NCBI RefSeq assembly: GCF_023008245.1
Contig: NZ_CP090145.1
Location: forward strand, 1,364,001 to 1,428,000
DNA: 64,000 nt
DNA from: Flavobacterium sediminilitoris
GTDB taxonomy: Bacteria > Bacteroidota > Bacteroidia > Flavobacteriales > Flavobacteriaceae
Reading direction: 5' to 3'
Shown: positions 13,337 through 31,072 of the stretch, piece by piece
How the letters are laid out: each line of letters begins with the position of its first letter
Numbering within the stretch: position 1 is the first letter of the stretch
Notes under the pieces: model-generated
Told to the model about the DNA's origin: nothing
The model's input: only the letters and a program-made list of their open reading frames with translations
Databases searched by the model: none
Position numbers and translations under genes: made by a program

Positions 13337-13422
13337 TGACTCATTCTAAAATAACTATACAGGTTATTAAATTAATCCTAATATAGCTATACAACGATTC
13401 TTCGTTTGTTTAATACAATTTG
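13337..13422 (+). repeat. Direct repeat, copy 1
   Basis: About 86 bp nearly identical to 13637-13722. The shared core runs from GACTC through CTAAAATAA, ATTAATCCTAATATAGC and TTCGTTTG to TTAATACAATTTG, with a few substitutions. The two copies begin exactly 300 bp apart. Confidence 0.85.
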
Positions 13423-13480
13423 ATTTGTAGTTTTTATAGTAAAAAGTGACAAGTAATTAGTGAATGGTTGCTTTATTTAT

Positions 13481-13636: not shown

Positions 13637-13722
13637 TGACTCGTCCTAAAATAATTATACAGTTTATTAAATTAATCCTAATATAGCTATACAGCGATTC
13701 TTCGTTTGGTTAATACAATTTG
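13637..13722 (+). repeat. Direct repeat, copy 2
   Basis: Second copy of the repeat at 13337-13422, differing at several positions. It is preceded and followed by related CTATCCTAACCTTT-containing sequence, so the duplicated unit was probably longer and has diverged. Confidence 0.85.
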
Positions 13723-13927
13723 TTGTCTTTTTAAATACTATTACTCTTCCATACTATTTGCTCCCTCTATCCTAACCTTTGATATGAAGTATCACCCTTG
13801 TAAAGACCCTCAAATTACAAAAGTAAAAACAACACGAAATTCTTGAATTTTGTGTACTACTTTAAAAAAAAGGATGCTTTATTGTGTTATTTTAATTTCG
13901 TGAAAAGTATATAAAAATTAAAAGAGT

Positions 13928-14035: not shown

Positions 14036-14135
14036 AAAAAAAGCCCCGTATTGGAAGACGAGGCAGCTTAAATGTTTTCACAACGGAATAATCCTTATTG
14101 TGAATTGCTTCAAAATTGTACTGCAATATACAATA
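14036..14135 (-). ncRNA. tracrRNA of the type II-C CRISPR system
   Basis: On the minus strand, 14120-14097 is an anti-repeat that pairs with the first 25 nt of the repeat (as read on the minus strand) with one bulged U and one G-U pair. It is followed directly by AATAAGGATTATTCCGTT, the equivalent of the nexus AATAAGG...CCGTT in Cas9 tracrRNAs, and then by a terminator stem (14043-14049 with 14058-14064) and a run of seven Ts ending at about 14036. The 5' end is not defined by sequence; a TAAATTTA box with an upstream TTTTG near 14190-14225 could place it around 14185. Divergent from cas9. Confidence 0.88.
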
Positions 14136-14235
14136 AATAAATTAATGATGTATTACGGTTTTCCGTAAGGATAATAATTTTCTTTTGATTAAATTTAGAA
14201 ATTGATATAAAAATACTGACAAAACCATTGTAGAA

Positions 14236-17200
14236 ATGAAAAAAATATTAGGACTGGATTTAGGAACAAATAGCATTGGATGGGCGTTGATTGAAGTTGA
14301 CCACGAAAATAAAATAGTTAAAATATTAGGATTAGGCTCTCGTATTTTGACAATGGATGCGGCAGAAATTGCTAAGTTTGAAAGTGGTGCTAAAATAGAA
14401 AGTTCTGCTGCTAAAAGAACTACTCAACGTTCTCCAAGAAAACTCAATGAAAGATATTTACTAAGAAGAGACAGGCTTCATTGCGTTTTAAATTTATTGA
14501 ATTCTCTTCCCGAGCATTATAAATTATCTATTGAATTTGAAAATGAAAAAGGAAAACGCAGCGGAAAGTTTAAGAAAGGTACGGAAGAGAAATTAGCTTA
14601 CTACAAAGATGATAATGGAAAGTTCCAGTTCCTTTTTAAAGATGCTTACCATCAAATGGAAAGTGAATTTAGGAAGAAATATCCAGAAATGTTTTATCTT
14701 AAAAGAAATGGCAACCAAACCAAAATCCCTTATGACTGGACATTATACTATTTAAGACATAAAGCAGTTACCGACATAAATTTTGAACTTACTAAAGAAC
14801 AATTGGCTTGGATTACTTTAAGCTTTAATCAAAAAAGAGGCTATGAAAAAGTAATTGGTCAAGATGAAAAAATACAAAAAGAAGGAGAATTAACGGATGC
14901 TTTTGTTGGGAAAGTAAAAAGTGTCAAAAAGATTGAGGATGAAGATATTTATGAAATTGTTTTGGTTGATAATAATAATGATGCAATAAAACTTTTCAAA
15001 TACAATGAAGAAACTAAAATACAAATTACTGAAATTGGGGATTTAAAGGAGGTTGAAATTGTTTCAAAGTATGATGAAGAAGGCACAATTAACACAAAGA
15101 AAACAGAATATATCATTAATGAAGTTCGTGAATTTTCAATAATCGATGTTAGAAACTCGGGACGAAAAATAAAAGAAAATTTCGTCTTTGAAATTGAACT
15201 GGAAACAGGTTGGATAAAAGAACAGCAAAGCAAATTTACTCCAAAGTGGAAAGATACCAAACGTGATTTTATCATTAAAACCAAATATGATGAAAATGGA
15301 ATCAGGATTCCAAAAGGTGCAGATAAAGGCAGAAACATTAATATTCCGAAAGAAGAAGATTGGACTTTGATGAAATTAAAAACAGAAACATCGCTTACTT
15401 CTTTTAATACAAAAAACAATACCAAAGGAGTTGCTTCATTTGTGTATTATACCCTTTTACAAAATCCAAAACAGAAAATCAAAGCCGATTTAATTACGGT
15501 TATTGAAAGAGATTATTACAGAGAAGAGTTGGATGTTATCTACAAAAATCAGGAACAATTTCATCCTGAGTTAAAAAATAGAAATTTGTATGAGCAAGCT
15601 ATTCAACTCTTATATCCTAATAATACTAATCATCAAAAAATAATTAAAGAGTTAGATTTTAATTATCTTTTAAAAGAAGATATTTTACTTTATCAAAGAG
15701 ATTTAAAATCAAAGAAATCTTTGATTGCTGATTGTGTTTACGAGAAAGAAAATTTTGAACGTACGGATGAGAAAACTGGCAAGACATATAAAAATTCACT
15801 TAAAGCAATACATAAAGCTAACCCTCTTTATCAGGAATTCAGACTTTGGCAGTTTATAAAAAGACTTAAAATCATTAAGAGAGAAGATATTGTTAACGAA
15901 CAAATTAAAATCAATCTTGATGTTAGTTCTCAATTATTGACAAGTGAACTAAAAGAAGAGTTGTATTCTTTTTTGAATGATAAGGAAAACGTAACAGAAA
16001 AAGATATTCTCGGATTTCTAAATAAAAAACACAAAGATTTAGATATTAAAGTTGAAAACTATAAATGGAATTTCACATCTGAAAAAGAACCTTGCAACTC
16101 AACTAGATATAATTTTATTTTAAGAACAAAACGAATTAAAGGGTTCGATTACAGAACATTTTTAACATCAGAAAATGAATATAGTCTTTGGCATTTCTTT
16201 TACTCTGTAAAGAAAAAGGATGAATTCAATAAAGGTTTATTCAACATCATTGGCAGGTTATTAGAAAAATCAGGGTTGTCAAAAGAATTTCATGCAGAGT
16301 TGGTAAAGAATTTTAGTTCTTTCGGTGGTTATACTAACGATTACGGAACCTATTCCGAGAAGGCAATAAAAAAAATGCTACCTTTTTTAAGACTAGGAAA
16401 ATATTGGAATGGAAAAGATATTGAGACTATTTTATCAAAAATAAATCAAGAGGTAAAACAAAAAGTTTTAGATAAAGAAGAAATCAATGGAGAACTGAAA
16501 GATTTTCAGGGTCTTTGGGTTTCGAGTGCTTGTTATTTGGTTTATGGTCGATATTCGGAAGTAGGAGAAGTTCAGTTTTGGCAGTCGCCTTATGATATTG
16601 AGAATTATTTGAAAAATGAATTCAGACAACATTCATTAAATAATCCTACTGTAGAAAAGATTTTGGTTGAAACGCTACACGTTGTAAAAGATATATGGAA
16701 ATATTATGGAGAAGAAATTGGAACTGATGAAGAAGGACGAATTGTTTACAATAAATTATTTGACAGAATTCATATTGAATTAGGTCGGGAAATGAAGAAA
16801 AACAATAAACAAAAAGAAAGAGATGATAAGCAAAATAAAGAGAACAGAAAAGCGAATGAACGAATTGTTGAACTTCTTCGAGAATTAAAAACAAATAATT
16901 CTTCACTTCAGGAAAAATCACCTTTTCAACAAGAGAAGTTGAGAATCTTGGAAGAAAGCCTCTTATCGTCAATTGAGTATGACAAGGATAATACAGAGTA
17001 TGAATTGTCTAATGGAAAAATTACCAAGAAGGAAATAAAAGACATAACCACAAAAGAGTTTTCTAAAATTAGCAGAAGTGATTTTGACCGATACAAGCTC
17101 TGGCTTGATCAACGTTACCAATCGCCTTACACAGGAAAATTTATTAAATTATCTGATTTGTTTGATCGAAAAAAGTATGAAATTGAGCATATATTTCCAC

Positions 17201-19245
17201 AAGAGCGTATCACACTAAATGCACTTTACAATAAAGTAATTTGTGAAACGGAAATTAACAAAGAGAAAAAAGCTTCCACTGGATACGGGTTTATTGCTAA
17301 TGCAAAATCAAAAAAAGTGTATTGTTCAGCACACGATGCACATACTGAGGTAATTAGTATTCACGAATATGAAGAATTGGTTAAAAATAATTTTTCTGGA
17401 AAGAAAAGAGAAATTTTATTGAGTAAAGAAATTCCCGAAGAGTTTACCAATAGTCAATTAACCAACAGTCAATACATCTCTAAAATGGCCATGAAACTGT
17501 TGAGCAACATTGTACGTGAAAAAGATGAAGACACTTTCCGCTCGAAAAATGTTTTAGCAACAAACGGAACAATTACTTCAACATTAAAAAGACATTGGCA
17601 ATTAAATGAGGCTTGGAATGAAATAATTTCTCCCCGTTTTAAACGATTAAACCAATTAACCAATTCTAATTTATTTGGAGACTATAGAGAAATAAACGGA
17701 CACAAAGTATTTATCAACACTGTTCCAGAAGAAGCAAACAAAAATTTTGACCCAAAAAGAATAGACCATCGCCATCACGCTTTGGATGCGTTGATAATTG
17801 CATTAACATCGGAAAATCACGTTCAATATCTAAACAATATTTCATCGCAAGAGAAAAATGATGAAGAAAAATTAAAAACAAGAAAAGGGATTAAATTTCA
17901 ATTAACAAATTCCAGAAAAGGATTTAATGATGAAAAAGAATGGTATTTCCTTCCACCTGCTCAAATAAAAACAAAAGATGGTATTGATGAATTTCAGTAT
18001 CAATTTGGCGAAACTAAAAGTAAACTATTTAAAGAAATTGCTCAAAATGCACTAGAAAACACTATTGCAAGTTTCAAACAAAAGAACCGTATCATTCGTC
18101 AGAGATGGAATAAATATTTAAAACCAGTAGATGGTAAAATGAAAATTGAAATACAAGAAGGATTAAAAGAAGTTGTTAATTATAATGTTAGAAAACGACT
18201 TCATGAAGATACTTTCTATGGAAAAGTAAAATTGCAGAATAAGGTTATATCAATTAGTCTGGAAAAAGCATTAAATGAAAAATTTGATTTGGTTGATGTT
18301 GAATTATCAAAGAAAATTGAAAATTTAAAACAGCGTAATGGTAAGTCTTTCAAAGAAATTATTGAAGAATTAGAAAGTAAATATCCGACCGTAAATGCCT
18401 ACGAAAAATTTGTAGCTACACGTTTCGGGAATGCATTGGAATCATTTGCATCAATACCATCTGATAAAATAATAAAAGCTATTCAATCCATTACAGATAC
18501 AGGCATTCAACGAATTTTACAGAATCATCTTGAAAATTACAAAGAAATTATAGATGGCAAAACAAAATTTGATACTGAAAATGCTTTTTCTTCTGATGGA
18601 GTGAAAGAATTGAACAGAAACATTATTAAATTAAACAACGGAAAATTTCATCATCCTATATATAAGGTAAGAACAAGTGATGCGATGGGAACTAAATTTT
18701 CAGTTTCGGAAGAAGGGCAAAAAAACACCAAGTATGTTGTTACTGCTGCTGGAAGTAATGCATTCTGCGGATTCTATCAAAAAGGAACAGATAGAAAATT
18801 CTACATTCCAACTTTGCGAGAATCTGTTGAAAGTTTAAAACAAGGTTTTGAGCCTTGTCCAGCAATACATCCAGAAGATTCTGAATTTAAATTAAATTTT
18901 GTTTTAAATCCAAGTGATTTAGTATATGTTCCTACAGAAGAAGAAAATGAAAATACAAGTTTGGTTGATTTTTCAAAAATGAAAAAAGAACAAATGAATA
19001 GGGTTTATAAGTTTACTGATGGGAGTGGTACCACCATGAATTTTGTGCCTATTAATGTTGCAAGTTTATTATTTAATATGTCAAATAAAGAACAAGAAAA
19101 AGCAGAAATTAAGCTATCAATCCAAAATGAATTAGGATTGGGTAGTCCACAATCTAAAAATCAAAATTCGCTTGATGGCACTCAGATTAAATCTGTTTGT
19201 TGGAAGTTGAAAGTGGATAGATTAGGTAATATTTCAAAAGCTTAA
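14236..19245 (+). CDS. cas9: CRISPR-associated endonuclease Cas9, subtype II-C
   Basis: 1669 aa, an RNA-guided DNA endonuclease. RuvC-I is at the N-terminus (LGLDLGTNSIGWAL, catalytic Asp8), followed by an Arg-rich bridge helix (KRTTQRSPRKLNERY). RuvC-II is IHIELGREM (Glu848), the HNH nuclease is YEIEHIFPQ (His985) with Asn999, and RuvC-III is DHRHHALDAL (His1181, Asp1184). All catalytic residues are present, so the enzyme looks intact. It is longer than most II-C proteins; residues about 210-370 look like an added beta-rich insertion in the recognition lobe. cas1 follows after 4 bp. The lack of csn2 or cas4 supports II-C. Confidence 0.97.
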   Translation: MKKILGLDLGTNSIGWALIEVDHENKIVKILGLGSRILTMDAAEIAKFESGAKIESSAAKRTTQRSPRKLNERYLLRRDRLHCVLNLLNSLPEHYKLSIEFENEKGKRSGKFKKGTEEKLAYYKDDNGKFQFLFKDAYHQMESEFRKKYPEMFYLKRNGNQTKIPYDWTLYYLRHKAVTDINFELTKEQLAWITLSFNQKRGYEKVIGQDEKIQKEGELTDAFVGKVKSVKKIEDEDIYEIVLVDNNNDAIKLFKYNEETKIQITEIGDLKEVEIVSKYDEEGTINTKKTEYIINEVREFSIIDVRNSGRKIKENFVFEIELETGWIKEQQSKFTPKWKDTKRDFIIKTKYDENGIRIPKGADKGRNINIPKEEDWTLMKLKTETSLTSFNTKNNTKGVASFVYYTLLQNPKQKIKADLITVIERDYYREELDVIYKNQEQFHPELKNRNLYEQAIQLLYPNNTNHQKIIKELDFNYLLKEDILLYQRDLKSKKSLIADCVYEKENFERTDEKTGKTYKNSLKAIHKANPLYQEFRLWQFIKRLKIIKREDIVNEQIKINLDVSSQLLTSELKEELYSFLNDKENVTEKDILGFLNKKHKDLDIKVENYKWNFTSEKEPCNSTRYNFILRTKRIKGFDYRTFLTSENEYSLWHFFYSVKKKDEFNKGLFNIIGRLLEKSGLSKEFHAELVKNFSSFGGYTNDYGTYSEKAIKKMLPFLRLGKYWNGKDIETILSKINQEVKQKVLDKEEINGELKDFQGLWVSSACYLVYGRYSEVGEVQFWQSPYDIENYLKNEFRQHSLNNPTVEKILVETLHVVKDIWKYYGEEIGTDEEGRIVYNKLFDRIHIELGREMKKNNKQKERDDKQNKENRKANERIVELLRELKTNNSSLQEKSPFQQEKLRILEESLLSSIEYDKDNTEYELSNGKITKKEIKDITTKEFSKISRSDFDRYKLWLDQRYQSPYTGKFIKLSDLFDRKKYEIEHIFPQERITLNALYNKVICETEINKEKKASTGYGFIANAKSKKVYCSAHDAHTEVISIHEYEELVKNNFSGKKREILLSKEIPEEFTNSQLTNSQYISKMAMKLLSNIVREKDEDTFRSKNVLATNGTITSTLKRHWQLNEAWNEIISPRFKRLNQLTNSNLFGDYREINGHKVFINTVPEEANKNFDPKRIDHRHHALDALIIALTSENHVQYLNNISSQEKNDEEKLKTRKGIKFQLTNSRKGFNDEKEWYFLPPAQIKTKDGIDEFQYQFGETKSKLFKEIAQNALENTIASFKQKNRIIRQRWNKYLKPVDGKMKIEIQEGLKEVVNYNVRKRLHEDTFYGKVKLQNKVISISLEKALNEKFDLVDVELSKKIENLKQRNGKSFKEIIEELESKYPTVNAYEKFVATRFGNALESFASIPSDKIIKAIQSITDTGIQRILQNHLENYKEIIDGKTKFDTENAFSSDGVKELNRNIIKLNNGKFHHPIYKVRTSDAMGTKFSVSEEGQKNTKYVVTAAGSNAFCGFYQKGTDRKFYIPTLRESVESLKQGFEPCPAIHPEDSEFKLNFVLNPSDLVYVPTEEENENTSLVDFSKMKKEQMNRVYKFTDGSGTTMNFVPINVASLLFNMSNKEQEKAEIKLSIQNELGLGSPQSKNQNSLDGTQIKSVCWKLKVDRLGNISKA

Positions 19246-19249
19246 TGCA

Positions 19250-20149
19250 ATGATAAAACGTACCCTTTTCTTTGGTAATCCTGTTTATTTGAGTACCAAA
19301 AATAAACAACTGGTGGTGTCTTATCCTGACAAGGAACAAGACACCAAGACTGTGGCTATAGAAGATATAGGTGTTGTTGTTTTAGAAAGCCAACAAATTA
19401 CTATTACCAATGGAGTACTAGAAAAACTGACGCAAAACAATGTGGCTTTAGTTAGTTGTGATGCCCAACACATGCCTACAGGTTTATTATTGCCTTTGCA
19501 AGGGCATAGCGAGCAAACCGAACGCTACAAACATCAGATCAACACCTCTGTGCCTTTGCAGAAGAATTTGTGGCAACAAACCATTAGTGCGAAGATTCTC
19601 AATCAGGCGAGTTTGTTAAAAGAAAGAGGGATACCGATGCGAAAGATGGAATTGTGGGCAAAGGAAGTGACCTCGGGAGATACACTTAATCATGAATCGA
19701 GAGCAGCTGTTTATTATTGGGAGAAACTTATTCCTATTCCTCATTTTACGAGAGGACAAAAAGGAATAGCACCCAATAATTTATTGAATTATGGCTATGC
19801 TATTCTAAGGGCTATTACAGCTCGTGCTCTAGTGAGTTCGGGCATGTTGCTTAGTTTGGGTATTTTTCATAGAAACAAATACAATGCGTATTGTTTAGCG
19901 GATGATATTATGGAACCCTATCGCCCATATGTGGATTTAATAGTTTGTCATATTATGGATACTGAGGATAATTATGATGAACTGACTACTGCAATTAAGA
20001 AAGAACTATTAAGTATTGCCAGTATGGATGTTGTTATTGATGGTAAAAGAAGTCCTTTGTTGGTGGCTATGAGTCGGACAACCAACTCTTTGTATGAATG
20101 TTTTGAAGGGAAAGCTAGAAAAATATTATATCCAGTTTATGGTTTATGA
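19250..20149 (+). CDS. cas1: CRISPR integrase Cas1, type II
   Basis: 299 aa, normal for type II Cas1. With Cas2 it integrates new spacers at the end of the array. Catalytic metal ligands are visible: Glu149 (NHESRAAVYYW), His207 (LGIFHRNKYN) and Asp218/Asp219 (LADDIMEPYRP). The N-terminal half is the beta-sheet dimerisation domain (MIKRTLFFGNPVYL). It starts 4 bp after the cas9 stop and is surely cotranscribed. Confidence 0.96.
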   Translation: MIKRTLFFGNPVYLSTKNKQLVVSYPDKEQDTKTVAIEDIGVVVLESQQITITNGVLEKLTQNNVALVSCDAQHMPTGLLLPLQGHSEQTERYKHQINTSVPLQKNLWQQTISAKILNQASLLKERGIPMRKMELWAKEVTSGDTLNHESRAAVYYWEKLIPIPHFTRGQKGIAPNNLLNYGYAILRAITARALVSSGMLLSLGIFHRNKYNAYCLADDIMEPYRPYVDLIVCHIMDTEDNYDELTTAIKKELLSIASMDVVIDGKRSPLLVAMSRTTNSLYECFEGKARKILYPVYGL

Positions 20150-20275: not shown

Positions 20276-20623
20276 ATGTATGACGACCATTATACACGTT
20301 TAAATCAATATAGAAGTTTGTGGATATTAGTATTTTTTGATTTACCAACCGAAACCCGAAAGGAACGTAAGATAGCATCTGGTTTTAGAAAGAAATTGCT
20401 AGATGACGGTTTTACTATGTTTCAGTTTTCTATTTATATGCGTTTTTGTGCCAGCAGAGAAAATGCAGAGGTACATACCAAACGAATTAAAAACAGTTTA
20501 CCCGAACACGGCAAAATAGGCGTGATGCAAATAACCGACAAACAATTTGGGATGATGGAATTATTTTATGGTAAAAAACCTGTGGAAACCGACAAACCTT
20601 CTCAGCAATTAGAACTTTTTTAG
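20276..20623 (+). CDS. cas2: CRISPR-associated protein Cas2
   Basis: 115 aa. Cas2 is the structural centre of the Cas1-Cas2 integrase. The LWILVFFDLPTETRKERK segment carries the conserved first strand and Asp; the ferredoxin-like fold continues with FTMFQFSIYMRFC. The C-terminal tail (KPSQQLELF) is typical of type II-C Cas2. It is separated from cas1 by an unusual 126-bp gap with no reading frame. The array begins 117 bp downstream. Confidence 0.93.
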   Translation: MYDDHYTRLNQYRSLWILVFFDLPTETRKERKIASGFRKKLLDDGFTMFQFSIYMRFCASRENAEVHTKRIKNSLPEHGKIGVMQITDKQFGMMELFYGKKPVETDKPSQQLELF

Positions 20624-20706: not shown

Positions 20707-20744
20707 ACTCACAACATATCAGCTTTTTAGGGCTTGATATGTTG
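20707..20744. repeat. Degenerate terminal repeat and inverted repeat at the cas2-side array end
   Basis: ACTCACAAC at 20707-20715 matches the last bases of the CRISPR repeat (plus-strand view) and is followed by 25 bp before the first full repeat, as expected for a decayed terminal repeat with a shortened spacer. In addition CAACATATCA (20712-20721) and TGATATGTTG (20735-20744) are a perfect 10-bp inverted repeat reaching into the first repeat. It may be a hairpin ending the minus-strand crRNA precursor or a boundary signal. Confidence 0.55.
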
Positions 20745-22104
20745 AGAATCATTAGTAAAAATACAATTTTGAAAGCAATTCACAACGCAATTTCTCTAAG
20801 TCTTTCTGCTTCTTTTGTTGAGAATCATTAGTAAAAATACAATTTTGAAAGCAATTCACAACATTTTACGCCCCTGCATTTGAATTGAATCGTTGAGAAT
20901 CATTAGTAAAAATACAATTTTGAAAGCAATTCACAACTTATCAGCAAGTATTTTTTCTGAAGCTTGAGTTGAGAATCATTAGTAAAAATACAATTTTGAA
21001 AGCAATTCACAACATAGTATTCGTTTCCCATTCTGATTTTAAAGTTGAGAATCATTAGTAAAAATACAATTTTGAAAGCAATTCACAACGGAAGAGTTTT
21101 AATTGAATACATTAGTTTTGTTGAGAATCATTAGTAAAAATACAATTTTGAAAGCAATTCACAACATATTGATTGCTTCATTTACTGTTTTTGCAGTTGA
21201 GAATCATTAGTAAAAATACAATTTTGAAAGCAATTCACAACTGGAGAATTAGTCATAATTAAAATTAATTAGTTGAGAATCATTAGTAAAAATACAATTT
21301 TGAAAGCAATTCACAACATCGGAAGATTGATGCAGAACGAAAAAGTGTTGAGAATCATTAGTAAAAATACAATTTTGAAAGCAATTCACAACTAGCAATT
21401 TTTAATCCTTGCAATCGGTTTTGTTGAGAATCATTAGTAAAAATACAATTTTGAAAGCAATTCACAACAAATCAGACATTAAATAATCTATTTGTTTGTT
21501 GAGAATCATTAGTAAAAATACAATTTTGAAAGCAATTCACAACGAAGTAATTACTTGAGAAAATTTTATTTCAGTTGAGAATCATTAGTAAAAATACAAT
21601 TTTGAAAGCAATTCACAACGATATCACATTCAATGCCATTTTTAACATGTTGAGAATCATTAGTAAAAATACAATTTTGAAAGCAATTCACAACATTATT
21701 TTAAAAATTATAAATTGTATTAATGTTGAGAATCATTAGTAAAAATACAATTTTGAAAGCAATTCACAACAATTGGTCTGAAAGTGCTTTCAATTCCTTT
21801 GTTGAGAATCATTAGTAAAAATACAATTTTGAAAGCAATTCACAACAATTGGAGCAACAGCTTTTAACAATTCTTTGTTGAGAATCATTAGTAAAAATAC
21901 AATTTTGAAAGCAATTCACAACTTAAACGAAACAACAATGAACGAACTTAACGTTGAGAATCATTAGTAAAAATACAATTTTGAAAGCAATTCACAACTA
22001 GATTCTAAAATAAACTCATTTAATTTCAGTTGAGAATCATTAGTAAAAATACAATTTTGAAAGCAATTCACAACGGGGGGCTCCGCATTTTCATCATCAC
22101 AAGC

Positions 22105-22203
22105 GTTGAGAATCATTAGTAAAAATACAATTATTCGTTTGATTTTTATTGTTTTTTAAAGGTACTCATGATGTGCTTCGCAGTTTTGAAAGCAATTCAC
22201 AAC
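22105..22203 (-). repeat. CRISPR repeat 19 with ~53-nt insertion
   Basis: The repeat is intact for its first 28 bases (22105-22132), interrupted by about 53 bp (beginning ATTCGTTTGATTTT and ending TGCTTCGCAG), and resumes with the last 18-20 bases to 22203. Read as crRNA, the 18-20 bases forming the core of the tracrRNA duplex stay intact and the insert lies beyond them. Confidence 0.9.
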
Positions 22204-22385
22204 TGTATGGCTTAAATTGTGAAGCAATTATAAGTTGAGAATCATTAGTAAAAATACAATTTTGAAAGCAATTCACAACAAAGCATACTAAATTATAAAT
22301 TATGGCAAAGTTGAGAATCATTAGTAAAAATACAATTTTGAAAGCAATTCACAACTTGGTAAAACAACAAATATTGAAGGACAAG

Positions 22386-22485
22386 GTTGAGAATCATTAG
22401 TAAAAATACAATTATTCGTTTGCTTTTTATTGTTTTTTTAAAGGTACTCATGATGTGCTTCGCAGTTTTGAAAGCAATTCACAAC
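22386..22485 (-). repeat. CRISPR repeat 22 with ~54-nt insertion
   Basis: The same insertion as in repeat 19 is at the same position, with an A-to-C change (TTTGCTTTTTATTG) and one extra T in the T run. The repeat's two ends are intact. Confidence 0.9.
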
Positions 22486-22515
22486 TGTGTCGTTCCAAGT
22501 TATTTCCGTGAATGT

Positions 22516-22602
22516 GTTGAGAATCATTTAGTAAAAATACAATTATTCGTTTGATTTTTATTGTTTTTTAAAGGTACTCATGATGTGCTTCGCAGTTTTG
22601 AA
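22516..22602 (-). repeat. CRISPR repeat 23, inserted and truncated terminal copy
   Basis: The terminal copy has one extra T near its start (GAATCATTTAG), the same insertion, and loses the last ~14 bases, so the segment that would start the tracrRNA duplex is gone. The following sequence is unrelated to the repeat. Confidence 0.88.
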
Positions 22603-22691
22603 TTAAAAATCATCGAATACTTTACAGAATAATATTAAATGAGGTAATTAAAAATCATCGAATATTTATAAAGGATATTAGACAATGAGGT
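22601..22691. repeat. 45-46-bp tandem direct repeat next to the array
   Basis: Two units, 22601-22645 and 22646-22691, both begin AATTAAAAATCATCGAATA and end AATGAGGT, with a diverged middle. They abut the truncated terminal CRISPR repeat. Their length is close to the CRISPR repeat but the sequence is different. They may belong to the leader region. Confidence 0.7.
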
Positions 22692-22990
22692 AAAGCAAAT
22701 TCGCATGAAAGAGAGGTGATTTGTTATTGTTTTGTGGTATGATAAATTGAAACAATGTTGTTTTAACATTGATTATAGTTTTTTAATGATTATGGTTAAA
22801 GTAGGAAATAATTGATTTTTTAATGATTGATCTTTTTATTTTTGTTAGAGAGGATGGTTAATGATTTGTCTTCTTGTAGGTTGTTTTTTTTATTGTTAAA
22901 GGGCGGAACGAATTAAACTTAAAAATATTTTCCTTGAGTTTTCGTCCTCATAATGGCAGGTGATCTGCAAGGGGAAATTTTAGGTATATT
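22692..22990. other. AT-rich non-coding gap after the CRISPR array
   Basis: No reading frame is supported. A 7-bp stem (22753-22759 with 22765-22771) is followed by a short T run. If the array is transcribed on the minus strand as one precursor, its leader promoter should lie here; I see no clear TAnnTTTG box on that strand. Confidence 0.5.
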
Positions 22991-25714: not shown

Positions 25715-26317
25715 ATGAAAACAACATTTATAAAAATTAAAATATTCTTAATAACAACATGTCTAATCAGCACAATATGGAGCTGTAAGGCACAAACAAA
25801 TATTGTTAACATAATAGAGAGATGTGATAGTCATCCTTTGAATCGTGATAATGGTAGTCTTTATTTAAAAGATATTAATAATTTATATGCTCCTTACTTA
25901 GGTACATGGAAATGGACAGAAGGTAATAGGGAATTTACTTTGACTTTATTAAAACAGACAAAATATCATTATAATCAAGGAATTGATAATTATTATGAGG
26001 ATAGGATTGTAGGTTATTATACATACAAAGAAAATGGAGTTGAATTGATAAATACCTCAAACGATAATTTAATAGATAGCTATAATATAAAAGTTGATTA
26101 TAGGTTTAATTGTCGTTCAAAATTGTCTGGACTTATCAAAGATATTGCTAAAAACAAACGATATCTTTCATGGTTTGAAATTATTTCACCTACTCAAATT
26201 CGTTTTAAAGGCAAGGAGGAAGAAGATGGTAGAATACAGAAAGAAGGTATGCCTCCACCTCCTGTTGTTTATGTAGGTAATAGTTTTCCTTTGGATATGG
26301 TGTTGACTAAGCAATGA
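25715..26317 (+). CDS. DUF6705-like lipoprotein, type A, copy 1
   Basis: 200 aa with a lipoprotein signal (IFLITTCLISTIWSCKAQ). The mature part resembles DUF6705: LKDINNLYAPYLGTWKWTEGNREFTLTLLKQ at about residues 50-80 and a closing VGNSFPLDMVLTKQ, where the ending matches the type B paralogs' TNLVLIRQ. It follows the JAMM-like lipoprotein by 18 bp, so the two are cotranscribed, which would suit an immunity partner. The family's function is not known. A near-identical type A gene lies at 29866. Confidence 0.65.
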   Translation: MKTTFIKIKIFLITTCLISTIWSCKAQTNIVNIIERCDSHPLNRDNGSLYLKDINNLYAPYLGTWKWTEGNREFTLTLLKQTKYHYNQGIDNYYEDRIVGYYTYKENGVELINTSNDNLIDSYNIKVDYRFNCRSKLSGLIKDIAKNKRYLSWFEIISPTQIRFKGKEEEDGRIQKEGMPPPPVVYVGNSFPLDMVLTKQ

Positions 26318-26345
26318 TTTTGAAATTAGTAGTAGTAATTTATTT

Positions 26346-26921
26346 ATGAAAACGATATTAAAACTAACATGTTTCTTATTATTTACAATACAGGTAAGCT
26401 GTCAAGTAACTCAGATTAAACCTCTTAATTATACCGATATTGAATCAAATGGAGATTATCTAAAAGACTTGGATGGTATATTGCCTTTTTGGGTAGGTAC
26501 TTGGAAAGGAACTGTTAACAACAGAGAGTATACTTTTCAATTCACAAAGTTTACTCAACACTTAACTACTTTTTCAAGTGGAAGGTATTTTTATTTAGAT
26601 GAATTAAAAGCTAAATTTAAAGTAGTGGATTTATCTACTAATCAAGTATTGTATGACGATTTGAATGTTACTGAATTTAGTGATTACAAGATTCGTTATT
26701 TATCTAACTTATATGAAGAATATACTTTTCATTTTAGAGATACTGAAAGTAACTGTAATAATCAAGCTAGATTTACTCTAATAAAAAGCGTGGATAATCC
26801 TAATCAAATAGCATATAAGGATTTCAAGTATGATGAGAATATTTATGAATGTCCTTATGAAACCCAAGCAGATATTCCTATGTTTTTACCAAAGACGAAT
26901 TTGGTGTTAATTAGGCAATAA
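26346..26921 (+). CDS. DUF6705-like lipoprotein, type B, copy 1 (cassette X)
   Basis: 191 aa. Signal ILKLTCFLLFTIQVSCQ is lipidated at Cys. Conserved core DLDGILPFWVGTWKGTVNN and FTKFTQHLTTFSS; the central-to-C-terminal cassette reads RYLSNLYEEYTFHF, called X here. Shares this cassette with the copy at 28461. N-terminal variant IESNGDY is shared with the copy at 30494. It follows the type A gene by 28 bp. Confidence 0.65.
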   Translation: MKTILKLTCFLLFTIQVSCQVTQIKPLNYTDIESNGDYLKDLDGILPFWVGTWKGTVNNREYTFQFTKFTQHLTTFSSGRYFYLDELKAKFKVVDLSTNQVLYDDLNVTEFSDYKIRYLSNLYEEYTFHFRDTESNCNNQARFTLIKSVDNPNQIAYKDFKYDENIYECPYETQADIPMFLPKTNLVLIRQ

Positions 26922-27051
26922 TTAGGGGTTAAGGCATAGGGTGTGATTGTTTTAAAGCGGTTTTTGTTTTTTTTGTGTAGAGAAATGAAACAAAAGAATA
27001 CTATAACAGATGTATAATAATGTTTACATACAATGGATAGAAATGATTTCT

Positions 27052-27627
27052 ATGAAAACGATATTAAAACTAACATGTTTTTTATTTTTTACAATACAGG
27101 TAAGCTGTCAAGTAACTCAGATAGTTCCTTTGAGCACTATTGATGAACCGAATGGAGCTTATGAAAAAGATTTGGATGGTATATTGCCTTTTTGGGTAGG
27201 TACTTGGAAAGGAACTGTTAACAACAGAGAGTATACTTTTCAATTCACAAAGTTTACTCAACACTTAACGACTTTTTCAAATGGAGATTATTATTATTCG
27301 GATATGTTAAAAGCTAAATTTAAAGTAGTGGATTTGTCTACTAATCAAGTATTGTATGACGATTTGAATGTTACTGAATTTGAAGATTACAAGATTCGTT
27401 ATTTAGCTCATTTTTTAACAGATTATTTTTTTGCGTTTTATGATACTGAAAATAATTGTTATAATAGGGCTGAATTTACACTAATAAAAGGAGACAATGC
27501 CCTTAATCAAATAGCATATAAGGATTTTAAATATAATCAAAATATTTATTTAGAATGTCCTTATGAAACCCAAGCAGATATTCCTATGTTTTTACCAAAG
27601 ACGAATTTGGTGTTAATTAGGCAATAA
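27052..27627 (+). CDS. DUF6705-like lipoprotein, type B, copy 2 (cassette Y)
   Basis: 191 aa. The ATG at 27052 directly starts the lipoprotein signal (MKTILKLTCFLFFTIQVSC); an ATG 42 bp upstream would add 14 residues and spoil it. The variable cassette RYLAHFLTDYFFAF (Y) is shared with the copy at 29162. N-terminal variant IDEPNGAY. Confidence 0.65.
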   Translation: MKTILKLTCFLFFTIQVSCQVTQIVPLSTIDEPNGAYEKDLDGILPFWVGTWKGTVNNREYTFQFTKFTQHLTTFSNGDYYYSDMLKAKFKVVDLSTNQVLYDDLNVTEFEDYKIRYLAHFLTDYFFAFYDTENNCYNRAEFTLIKGDNALNQIAYKDFKYNQNIYLECPYETQADIPMFLPKTNLVLIRQ

Positions 27628-27756
27628 TTAGGGGTTAAGGCATAGGGTGTGATTGTTTTAAAGCGGTTTTTGTTTTTTTGTGTAGAGAAATGAAACAAAA
27701 GAATACTATAACAGATGTATAATAATGTTTACATACAATGGATAGAAATGATTTCT

Positions 27757-28332
27757 ATGAAAACGATATTAAAACTAACATGTTTCTTGTTTTTTACAAT
27801 AGAGGTAAGTTGTCAAGTAACTCAAATAGTTCCTTTAAAAACAATAGATGAACCAAATGGGGCTTATAAAAAAGACTTGGATGGTATATTGCCTTTTTGG
27901 GTAGGTACTTGGAAAGGAACTGTTGACAACAGAGAATATACTTTTCAATTCACAAAGTTTACTCAACACTTAACTACTTTTTCAAATGGAGATTATTATT
28001 ATTCGGATATGATAAAAGCTAAATTTAAAGTAGTGGATTTGTCTACTAATCAAGTATTGTATGACGATTTGAATGTTACTGAATTTGAAGATTATAAAAT
28101 TTGGCTTTTAGGTAATATGGGTGAGGAGTATTTTTATGCCTTTTATGATACTGAGGTTAATTGCTATAACAGTGTAAAGTTTGCTTTAATAAAAAGCGTG
28201 GATAATTCTAATCAAATAGCATATAAGGATTTCAAGTATGATGAGAGCATTTATTTAGAATGTCCTTATGAAACCCAAGCAGATATTCCTATGTTTTTAC
28301 CAAAGACGAATTTGGTGTTAATTAGGCAATAA
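27757..28332 (+). CDS. DUF6705-like lipoprotein, type B, copy 3 (cassette Z)
   Basis: 191 aa. Signal and core as in the other copies; start at 27757 for the same reason as in copy 2. The variable cassette WLLGNMGEEYFYAF (Z) is shared with the copy at 30494. N-terminal variant IDEPNGAY, as in copies 2 and 4. Confidence 0.65.
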   Translation: MKTILKLTCFLFFTIEVSCQVTQIVPLKTIDEPNGAYKKDLDGILPFWVGTWKGTVDNREYTFQFTKFTQHLTTFSNGDYYYSDMIKAKFKVVDLSTNQVLYDDLNVTEFEDYKIWLLGNMGEEYFYAFYDTEVNCYNSVKFALIKSVDNSNQIAYKDFKYDESIYLECPYETQADIPMFLPKTNLVLIRQ

Positions 28333-28460
28333 TTAGGGGTTAAGGCATAGGGTGTGATTGTTTTAAAGCGGTTTTTGTTTTTTGTGTAGAGAAATGAAAC
28401 AAAAGAATACTATAACAGATGTATAATAATATTTACATACAACAGATAGAAATGATTTTT

Positions 28461-29033
28461 ATGAAAACGATATTAAAACTAACATGTTTTTTATTATTTA
28501 CAATAGAGGTAAGCTGTCAAGTAACTCAAATAGTTCCTTTAAAAACAATAGATGAACCAAATGGGGCTTATAAAAAAGACTTGGATGGTATATTGCCTTT
28601 TTGGGTAGGTACTTGGAAAGGAACTGTTAACAACAGAGAATATACTTTTCAATTCACAAAGTTTACTCAACACTTAACTACTTTTTCAAATGGAGATTAT
28701 TATTATTCGGATATGATAAAAGCTAAATTTAAAGTAGTGGATTTGTCTACTAATCAAGTATTGTATGACGATTTGAATGTTACTGAATTTAGTGATTACA
28801 AGATTCGTTATTTATCTAACTTATATGAAGAATATACTTTTCATTTTAGAGATACTGAAAGTAACTGTAATAATCAAGCTAGATTTACTCTAATAAAAAG
28901 CGTGGATAATCCTAATCAAATAGCATATAAGGATTTCAAGTATGATGAGAATATTTATGAATGTCCTTATGAAACCCAAGCAGATATTCCTATGTTTTTA
29001 CCAAAGACGAATTTGGTGTTAATTAGGCAATAA
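28461..29033 (+). CDS. DUF6705-like lipoprotein, type B, copy 4 (cassette X)
   Basis: 190 aa. The variable cassette is again X, as in the copy at 26346, including the shorter ENIYECPYE end that lacks one residue of the other types. The N-terminal half (IDEPNGAY, DMIKAK) is of the copy 3 type, so this gene is a chimera of two others. Confidence 0.65.
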   Translation: MKTILKLTCFLLFTIEVSCQVTQIVPLKTIDEPNGAYKKDLDGILPFWVGTWKGTVNNREYTFQFTKFTQHLTTFSNGDYYYSDMIKAKFKVVDLSTNQVLYDDLNVTEFSDYKIRYLSNLYEEYTFHFRDTESNCNNQARFTLIKSVDNPNQIAYKDFKYDENIYECPYETQADIPMFLPKTNLVLIRQ

Positions 29034-29161
29034 TTAGGGGTTAAGGCATAGGGTGTGATTGTTTTAAAGCGGTTTTTGTTTTTTGTGTAGAGAAATGAAA
29101 CAAAAGAATACTATAACAGATGTATAATAATATTTACATACAGCAGATAGAAATGATTTCT

Positions 29162-29737
29162 ATGAAAACGATATTAAAACTAACATGTTTTTTATTTTTT
29201 ACAATACAGGTAAGCTGTCAAGTAACTCAGATAGTTCCTTTAAAAACGTATGATTATAACAATGGGGCTTATCTAAAAGACTTGGATGGTATATTGCCTT
29301 TTTGGGTAGGCACTTGGAAAGGAACTGTTGACAACAGAGAATATACTTTTCAATTCACAAAGTTTACTCAACACTTAACTACTTTTTCAAATGGAGATTA
29401 TTATTATTCGGATATGATAAAAGCTAAATTTAAAGTAGTGGATTTGTCTACTAATCAAGTATTGTATGACGATTTGAATGTTACTGAATTTGAAGATTAC
29501 AAGATTCGTTATTTAGCTCATCTTTTAACAGATTATTTTTTTGCATTTTATGATACTGAAAGTAATTGTAATAATCGAGTTAGATTTACATTAGTAAAAG
29601 GAGATAATGCCCTTAATCAAATAGAATATAAGGATTTTAGATATAATCAAAATATTTATTTAGAATGTCCTTATGAAACCCAAGCAGATATTCCTATGTT
29701 TTTACCAAAGACGAATTTGGTGTTAATTAGGCAATAA
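29162..29737 (+). CDS. DUF6705-like lipoprotein, type B, copy 5 (cassette Y)
   Basis: 191 aa. The variable cassette is Y, as in the copy at 27052, with a few substitutions (RYLAHLLTDYFFAF). The N-terminal variant YDYNNGAY is unique in the array. Confidence 0.65.
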   Translation: MKTILKLTCFLFFTIQVSCQVTQIVPLKTYDYNNGAYLKDLDGILPFWVGTWKGTVDNREYTFQFTKFTQHLTTFSNGDYYYSDMIKAKFKVVDLSTNQVLYDDLNVTEFEDYKIRYLAHLLTDYFFAFYDTESNCNNRVRFTLVKGDNALNQIEYKDFRYNQNIYLECPYETQADIPMFLPKTNLVLIRQ

Positions 29738-29865
29738 TTAGGGGTTAAGGCATAGGGTGTGATTGTTTTAAAGTGTTTTTTGTTTTTTATGTAGAGAAAT
29801 GAAACAAAAGAATACTATAACAGATGTATAATAATATTTACATACAATGGATAGAAATGATTTCT

Positions 29866-30465
29866 ATGAAAACGATATTTATAAAAATTAAAATATTCTT
29901 AATAACAACATGTCTAATCAGCACAATATGGAGCTGCAAAGCACAAACAAATGTTATTAATATAACGGAATGGTGTAATAATCAGACTAGCGAAACAAAT
30001 GGTAGTCTTTATTTAAAAGATATTAATAATTTATATGCTCCTTACTTAGGTACATGGAAATGGACAGAAGGTAATAGGGAATTTACTTTAACCTTATTAA
30101 AACAAACAAAATATCATTATAATCAAGGAATTGATAATTATTATGAGGATAGAATTGTAGGTTATTATACATACAAAGAAAATGGAGTTGAATTGATAAA
30201 TACTTCAAACGATGATTTAGCGGATGACTATAGTTTGAATGTGAAATTTACTTTTGATTGTTATTCAGATTTGACCGGTATCATAGATGATGTTTTTAAA
30301 AACAAACGATATCTTTCATGGTTTGAAATTATTTCACCTACTCAAATTCGTTTTAAAGGCAAGGAGGAAGAAGATGGTAGAATACAGAAAGAAGGTATGC
30401 CTCCACCTCCTGTTGTTTATGTAGGTAATAGTTTTCCTTTGGATATGGTGTTGACTAAGCAATGA
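29866..30465 (+). CDS. DUF6705-like lipoprotein, type A, copy 2
   Basis: 199 aa, closely similar to the gene at 25715, differing mainly at residues about 26-40 and 110-140. Its upstream leader and first codons (ATGAAAACGATA) are of type B, joined to a type A body at about codon 5, so the duplication junction lies at the start of the gene. Confidence 0.65.
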   Translation: MKTIFIKIKIFLITTCLISTIWSCKAQTNVINITEWCNNQTSETNGSLYLKDINNLYAPYLGTWKWTEGNREFTLTLLKQTKYHYNQGIDNYYEDRIVGYYTYKENGVELINTSNDDLADDYSLNVKFTFDCYSDLTGIIDDVFKNKRYLSWFEIISPTQIRFKGKEEEDGRIQKEGMPPPPVVYVGNSFPLDMVLTKQ

Positions 30466-30493
30466 TTTTGAAATTAGTAGTAGTAATTTATTT

Positions 30494-31072
30494 ATGAAAA
30501 CGATATTAAAACTAACATGTTTCTTATTATTTACAATACAGGTAAGTTGTCAAGTAACTCAGATTAAACCTCTTAATTATACCGATATTGAATCAAATGG
30601 TGATTATCGAAAAGACTTGGATGGTATATTGCCTTTTTGGGTAGGTACTTGGAAAGGAACTGTTAACAACAGAGAGTATACTTTTCAATTCACAAAGTTT
30701 ACTCAACACTTAACTACTTTTTCAAGTGGAAGGTATTTTTATTTAGATGAATTAAAAGCTAAATTTAAAGTAGTGGATTTATCTACTAATCAAGTATTGT
30801 ATGACGATTTGAATGTTACTGAATTTGAGGATTATAAAATTTGGCTTTTAGGTAATATGGGTGAGGAGTATTTTTATGCCTTTTATGATACTGAGGTTAA
30901 TTGCTATAACAGTGTGAAGTTTGCTTTAATAAAAAGCGTGGATAATCCTAATCAAATAGCATATAAGGATTTCAAATATGATGAGAGCATTTATTTAGAA
31001 TGTCCTTATGAAACCCAAGCAGATATTCCTATGTTTTTACCAAAGACGAATTTGGTGTTAATTAGGCAATGA
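30494..31072 (+). CDS. DUF6705-like lipoprotein, type B, copy 6 (cassette Z)
   Basis: 192 aa. N-terminal part (IESNGDY, FSSGRYFYLDEL) is that of the copy at 26346, but the variable cassette is Z, as in the copy at 27757. It is thus a recombinant and ends the paralog array. Confidence 0.65.
   Translation: MKTILKLTCFLLFTIQVSCQVTQIKPLNYTDIESNGDYRKDLDGILPFWVGTWKGTVNNREYTFQFTKFTQHLTTFSSGRYFYLDELKAKFKVVDLSTNQVLYDDLNVTEFEDYKIWLLGNMGEEYFYAFYDTEVNCYNSVKFALIKSVDNPNQIAYKDFKYDESIYLECPYETQADIPMFLPKTNLVLIRQ

Follow-up and report, generated by a model that had tools for sequence, protein, structure and literature searches.

Inserts within the leader-distal repeats of a Flavobacterium type II-C CRISPR array and their possible spread by repeat-to-repeat recombination

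How a single short insert came to occupy three repeats of one CRISPR array, two of them separated by unaltered repeats, is the question raised by a locus of Flavobacterium sediminilitoris (NZ_CP090145.1, positions 1,364,001 to 1,428,000; this whole stretch of 64,000 nt is referred to here as the window). Twenty of the 23 repeats of the array are an identical 46-mer, and the exceptions are repeats 19, 22 and 23.

A composite terminal repeat in a type II-C array

The window holds a Flavobacterium type II-C CRISPR-Cas system in which cas9 (14236..19245, 1669 aa; TIGR01865 cas_Csn1, 6e-88; Pfam RuvC_III, HNH_4 and bridge helix), cas1 (19250..20149, 299 aa; TIGR03639 type II Cas1, 2.6e-89) and cas2 (20276..20623, 115 aa; TIGR01573, 1.1e-19) lie on the + strand and are followed by the array, from position 20741. 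Cas9 is accompanied by a type II Cas1 and by Cas2, and the cas9-to-array interval is free of any other cas gene among ORFs of at least 100 aa, as expected of type II-C. The succession of cas9, cas1, cas2 and array is that of the type II-C systems of F. columnare and F. psychrophilum, and the 46-bp repeats resemble those of F. psychrophilum CN46 as presented in excerpts of two accounts (PMC8092290, PMC10309648). The nearest relatives of Cas1 are those of F. jejuense (97% identity) and Flavobacterium sp. J27 (95%). Upstream of cas9, a candidate tracrRNA region on the - strand (14040..14150, limits set by eye) combines an anti-repeat complementary to the crRNA-strand repeat with a terminator-like hairpin. 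Further upstream, a near-identical pair of sequences of about 75 nt each was noticed by eye (13345-13425 and 13645-13725), and downstream of the array eight ORFs of 191-213 aa, all in the same direction (25715-31072), possibly form a tandem gene family.

Repeats 1-18 are exact 46-mers separated by spacers of 29-30 nt (20741..22104), as are repeats 20 and 21 with their intervening spacer (22234..22355). Repeat 19 (22105..22203, 99 nt) contains a 53-nt insert, here termed A (about 22133-22185), and repeat 22 (22386..22485, 100 nt) carries a 54-nt version of it; both contain A only, resume the exact repeat at TTTTGAA and are bordered by normal 30-nt spacers. Insert A is flanked by TT on both sides and joins the repeat after base 28 in repeats 19 and 22; in repeat 23, where an additional T is present, the join follows base 29. 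With this one-base correction, the analysis bears out the sequence-only reading, which had described the same 53/54-nt insert after base 28 of these repeats and 20 exact copies elsewhere. Repeats 19 and 23 are identical over a 75-nt stretch around A, and repeat 22 departs from them by a single substitution and an additional T (98% identity over the whole repeat). A 23-nt core of A has three matches in the window, all exact with up to three mismatches allowed, against a mean of 0.00 in 100 shuffles. No full copy of A was found outside the array in the 3.91-Mb single-contig genome when 40 of the 104 and 40 of the 106 initial candidates were scored, the best match among them being a 21-nt T-rich piece (E 3.9e-4). 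Given the shared join, the near-identical sequences and the lack of a further full copy among these candidates, the three A inserts most likely go back to a single origin and were propagated inside the array, as had been proposed, instead of arising in three events.

Repeat 23 is longer than first described. Its end had been placed at 22602, which is too short, since a second insert, B, lies beyond that point. Its left part (22516..22544, 29 nt with the extra T) is followed by A and a TTTTGAA link (22545..22602), by two tandem copies of B of 45 nt each (22603..22692; B1 22603-22647, B2 22648-22692) and by a degenerate right repeat end (22693..22707), so that the whole forms a composite of 192 nt. 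Both A and B leave 13-18 nt intact at the leader-distal end of the repeat.

The orientation of the array can be read from its flanks. The cas2-side flank is conserved across species and contains a dyad, CAACATATC...GATATGTTG (20712..20744), that spans the leader-repeat junction. In an alignment of 20 loci (18 distinct rows), 93.8% of its cells are paired and three pairs have changed on both sides, a pattern that slid controls fail to reproduce; the 20 were drawn from 25 loci, with L041, L044, L046 and L052 omitted as near-copies and the locus of genome G117 omitted because it needs a gap. The right arm of the dyad covers the first four bases of repeat 1, and the dyad may be a recognition feature for Cas1-Cas2. 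The spacing between cas1 and the array falls within 461-465 nt in 16 of the 22 measured loci and within 531-852 nt in the other six (591 nt here). At the opposite end, the last repeats appear worn by eye in several loci. Excerpts of two accounts propose a promoter inside the repeats of Flavobacterium II-C arrays and transcription toward the leader (PMC8092290, PMC10309648), one of them describing this as the variable end (PMC8092290). Together, the conserved cas2-side flank, its dyad, the worn far-end repeats and the published direction of transcription indicate that the inserts lie at the old end of the array and that the crRNA strand is the - strand, with the insert-bearing repeat 23 as the leader-distal terminal repeat. 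The suggestion that an insert-bearing repeat marks the integration site consequently finds no support, because the leader lies at the other end of the array, beside cas2.

Related inserts in other arrays and between genes

A comparison with related genomes, which the sequence-only reading had proposed as a check, showed that other species, too, have inserts of this kind at the corresponding end of their arrays, which that reading had missed. In a sister genome (G626), whose Cas1 is 97% identical, 25 clean repeats are followed by one terminal repeat of 280 nt made up of a left half, A, four copies of B and an intact right end. Flavobacterium sp. J27 (L039) carries B in its last four repeats, 12-15, spaced by 30-nt spacers, with a worn right end in repeat 15, and F. 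jejuense (L038) retains a B remnant past a 1.8-kb interruption, identified from a match of 33-39 nt, part of which is the repeat end itself. B-type terminal repeats adjoin the arrays of L048, L050 and G627, the array of the last being itself an assembly gap, whereas in L045 a B-type repeat lies 4.6 kb downstream of the array and in G412 (L105) several B-type repeats lie beyond it, amid other repeated sequence. In another genus (G117), an A-type insert occupies the same join in the repeat after the last clean one; the sequence behind it is not clearly B, and in its left half this repeat does not match the clean repeat of that array.

Among 27 loci chosen by Cas1 alone, six stop short of the far end (L053, L054, L056, L057, L059 and L060). 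A B-type insert or remnant is present in five of the 21 loci with a visible far end (L038, L039, L045, L048 and L050), and no insert was found in the other 16, which include L043, where one clean repeat is seen, L049, in whose array part of the sequence is N, L064, and L040, counted as insert-free although its last repeat ends in TTTTGAACTATT, perhaps a trace of B. A genus-wide search for a long-repeat pattern, outside which the longer repeat of G626 falls, matched 4 of 398 genomes; three of these have long repeats (the genome studied here, G412 and G627), and the fourth, G664, was rejected because its match spans a spacer containing ATACAATT.

Three observations concern the surroundings of these loci. 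About 6.5 kb from the array of G626, an intergenic right half of A is joined to B (L095, G626:C1:779612-779732). Between the B-bearing repeats of L105 (480-1650), recurring modules with a promoter-like TTG-N18-TATATTTG and terminator-like hairpins were noticed by eye and are possible small RNA genes. Lastly, in L043 (10891-12384) cas1-cas2 and a leader are followed by one clean repeat and then by about 990 nt of other sequence, which makes it either a one-repeat array or an assembly join.

Across eight loci, 11 of 28 pairs of B sequences are more similar than all 400 single-base shuffles. Seven pairs fail to exceed chance (39 to 219 of 400 shuffles), so that homology of the inserts in L050, G412 and L045 is indicated by some of their pairs only. 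Conservation of B above that of synonymous sites was also considered, but dropped once shuffled versions of B turned out to align at a comparable percent identity.

By sequence similarity, insert A has a relative in a short intergenic sequence of other Flavobacteriaceae. Matches of A type that reach the right end of the insert (E 1e-4 or better) occur in at least 17 of the 396 other genomes of a family sample, the array copy of G117 included; many of the 85 of 397 and 245 of 398 genomes matched in total hit the T-rich part of the query only and were not counted as copies. A profile of the family, built from 14 typed copies of which most recur among its matches, has 42 matches in 57 hit-selected loci, one of them in the G117 array, and 37 of the 42 lie outside ORFs of at least 100 aa. 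These 37 show no clear orientation bias, the upstream neighbours being in the same direction in 15 cases, opposite in 15 and absent in 7, and the downstream neighbours in 18, 13 and 6, respectively, and a role of A as a gene-linked promoter was rejected. Read in inverted orientation, B resembles the same family: against a hand-made A-family consensus, its similarity was equalled by 0 of 500 shuffles in five of six cases and by 3 of 500 in the sixth. Against the A of the window itself the corresponding counts were 0, 1, 1, 9, 30 and 86 of 500, with one of six units beating all shuffles. One dispersed A-type copy, in L011, shows no second arm by eye when read past its end. A search for known RNA families in six loci gave 26 matches at an E of 0.1 or lower, every one of them to CRISPR-DR50. 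In L097 (G346), a unit of about 88 nt with the T-rich core of A is present six times in tandem beside an ORF start resembling cysteine synthase, again by eye.

Spread of the inserts through the array

The composite structure of repeat 23, the similar inserts at the same end of related arrays and the exact joins at TTTTGAA suggest a model in which an insert-bearing terminal repeat was inherited and inner repeats received copies of parts of it, most likely through recombination between repeats, a reading to which we assign a probability of roughly 0.55. In this model, the oldest, leader-distal repeat of the Flavobacterium type II-C lineage would often carry inherited mid-repeat insertions, and the terminal repeat 23, with A and two copies of B, would have acted as the donor. 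The left part of the composite, comprising A alone, would then have been copied into repeats 22 and 19 as repeats with the same outer halves and the same short TTTTGAA link recombined or underwent template switching.

Several lines of evidence favor recombination with the terminal repeat as donor. In the five arrays that can be compared (the window, G626, L039, L048 and L050), each long repeat has the left half of the species' own clean repeat, as shown by the diagnostic sequences CATTAG, CATAAG, CATGAG, AAAGATAC and TATAAGCTAAAA, the extra T of repeat 23 being the one exception. Since the inserts themselves differ between species, this match suggests that long and clean repeats have exchanged sequence. 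Furthermore, L048 keeps 39 nt of the clean repeat before B, consistent with a different crossover point, and exact duplicated spacer blocks in L050 and L052 show repeat-mediated recombination in related arrays. The L050 array shows a segmental duplication in which a four-spacer block (extracted-spacer indices 4-7) recurs exactly as 9-12. Only L050 and L052 were used in this argument, because the single recurrent spacers of L038, L045, L048 and L061 could reflect repeated acquisition, which is also possible for the recurrent 18-21-nt pieces of L040.

A tentative alternative, to which we give appreciably less credit, is ordinary spacer acquisition. The leader repeat of the young array would have carried the insert, the II-C Cas1-Cas2 would have duplicated the whole repeat of 92-99 nt for every spacer gained, reading its boundaries from the end sequences, and clean 46-mers would have returned through exact loss of the insert. 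The order of repeats 19-23 (insert, clean, clean, insert, insert) fits acquisition and recombination alike, and the four adjacent B-bearing repeats of J27, its oldest, with 30-nt spacers between them, suit acquisition at least as well as recombination. The normal 30-nt spacers flanking repeats 19 and 22 agree with acquisition too, and L043, if not an assembly join, shows that a leader and a single repeat can make up an array. In type II-A systems, according to parts of one study, an element close to the leader-distal end of the repeat determines where the second integration takes place, and when a few bases are inserted upstream of this element the site moves and a longer repeat is copied (PMC6895254); the 13-18 nt spared by A and B lie at that same end. 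The insertions described in those parts of the work of Kim et al. measure only 1-3 nt, however, and integration at the normal position was also seen in vivo (PMC6895254), while the clean repeats 20 and 21 demand additional losses, each restoring an exact 46-mer.

That a small mobile element inserted three times at one preferred site in separate repeats is very improbable. The dispersal of A-like sequences in other genomes and the TT on both sides of the insert are compatible with such an element, but the inserts share their join and orientation, repeats 19 and 23 are identical around A, no full copy was found elsewhere in the genome among the candidates scored, and related inserts are common to other species at the array end.

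Function of the long repeats and their bearing on array history

The clean repeats of the window and of J27 contain a promoter-like TTG-N19-TATTTTTA on the crRNA strand that is absent from the clean repeat of L050, so that the pair may not drive transcription of these arrays. In repeats 19, 22 and 23 the insert separates its two halves and no such pair remains at a spacing of 15-25 nt; the A-bearing units may hence be expressed mainly by read-through. The long repeats of J27, G626 and G627 possess a substitute pair. Pairing with the tracrRNA had been expected to persist in repeats 19 and 22, and the predicted duplex energies uphold this, at -32.6 kcal/mol for an A-bearing repeat vs -33.1 for a clean one; pairing is weaker for the J27 B repeat, at -28.0 kcal/mol, and weakest for repeat 23, at -24.3 kcal/mol. 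Folding tests were not significant for repeat 23 as DNA (z -0.16) or repeat 19 as RNA (z -1.22), and with the promoter-like pair split by the insert, the proposal of a regulatory or processing signal gains no positive support. The A-bearing units, in which the tracrRNA-pairing half of the repeat is intact, are probably tolerated passengers.

It is very improbable that the long terminal repeat is a functional cap, with B contributing one half of a new promoter from which transcription would run from the far end toward the leader. The substitute pair, TTG-N17..19-TATTTTT(A/T) on the crRNA strand, occurs in the long repeats of J27 (12 and 15 tested), G626 and G627, and an idealized count finds it in 6 of 8 B units, where shuffles give an expectation of 2.10. 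This count is weak, nonetheless, because all B units, the worn ones included, were given an intact repeat end for it, and because they are related to one another; the pair is also absent from repeats 19, 22 and 23 of the window and from the terminal repeat of L050; moreover, most relatives have no B. Repeats are hard to assemble, but an assembly artefact can be given next to no credence, given that the genome is a single contig and that the same composite is seen in G626, and multiple insert-bearing repeats in J27, both of them independent genomes.

Unlike the 36-bp repeats of F. columnare and those of the F. psychrophilum type II-C arrays, the far-end repeats described here are lengthened to 92-280 nt by inserts. 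Their leader-distal position, and the worn right end of the copy in this genome, recall the degenerate terminal repeat of CRISPR arrays, but the change is a long insertion common to several species and is not confined to the last repeat, with copies at 19 and 22 here and at 12-14 in J27. The presence of foreign DNA inside an array has a parallel in the IS256 element that splits the F. psychrophilum CN46 array, as mentioned in part of one account (PMC10309648), from which the present case differs in that a non-coding insert of 45-54 nt lies within the repeats, in several copies. Like REP and MITE sequences, A belongs to a short dispersed intergenic family that B resembles in inverted form; unlike REP, the insert-bearing repeats gave no significant hairpin in the two folding tests, and A is not of high copy number in this genome, with no full copy found outside the array among the candidates scored. 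A literature search of one library, covering titles and abstract openings, retrieved nothing comparable on inserts in CRISPR repeats.

No spacers common to different species were found among 20 arrays (E up to 0.01), the longest cross-species match being 14 nt, and two 22-nt spacer cores beside the inserts have no exact match to viral contigs. The recurring insert makes the terminal repeat a possible cross-species marker of array history where no shared spacers are found. Furthermore, repeat length is usually taken to be set by a molecular ruler during acquisition, and the double-length repeats of this array and of J27 sit between normal spacers. These arrays offer a direct means of asking whether the integrase can copy long repeats or the repeats recombine, and if repeats of 92-99 nt are indeed copied as whole units, the arrays would constitute a natural record of integrase tolerance.
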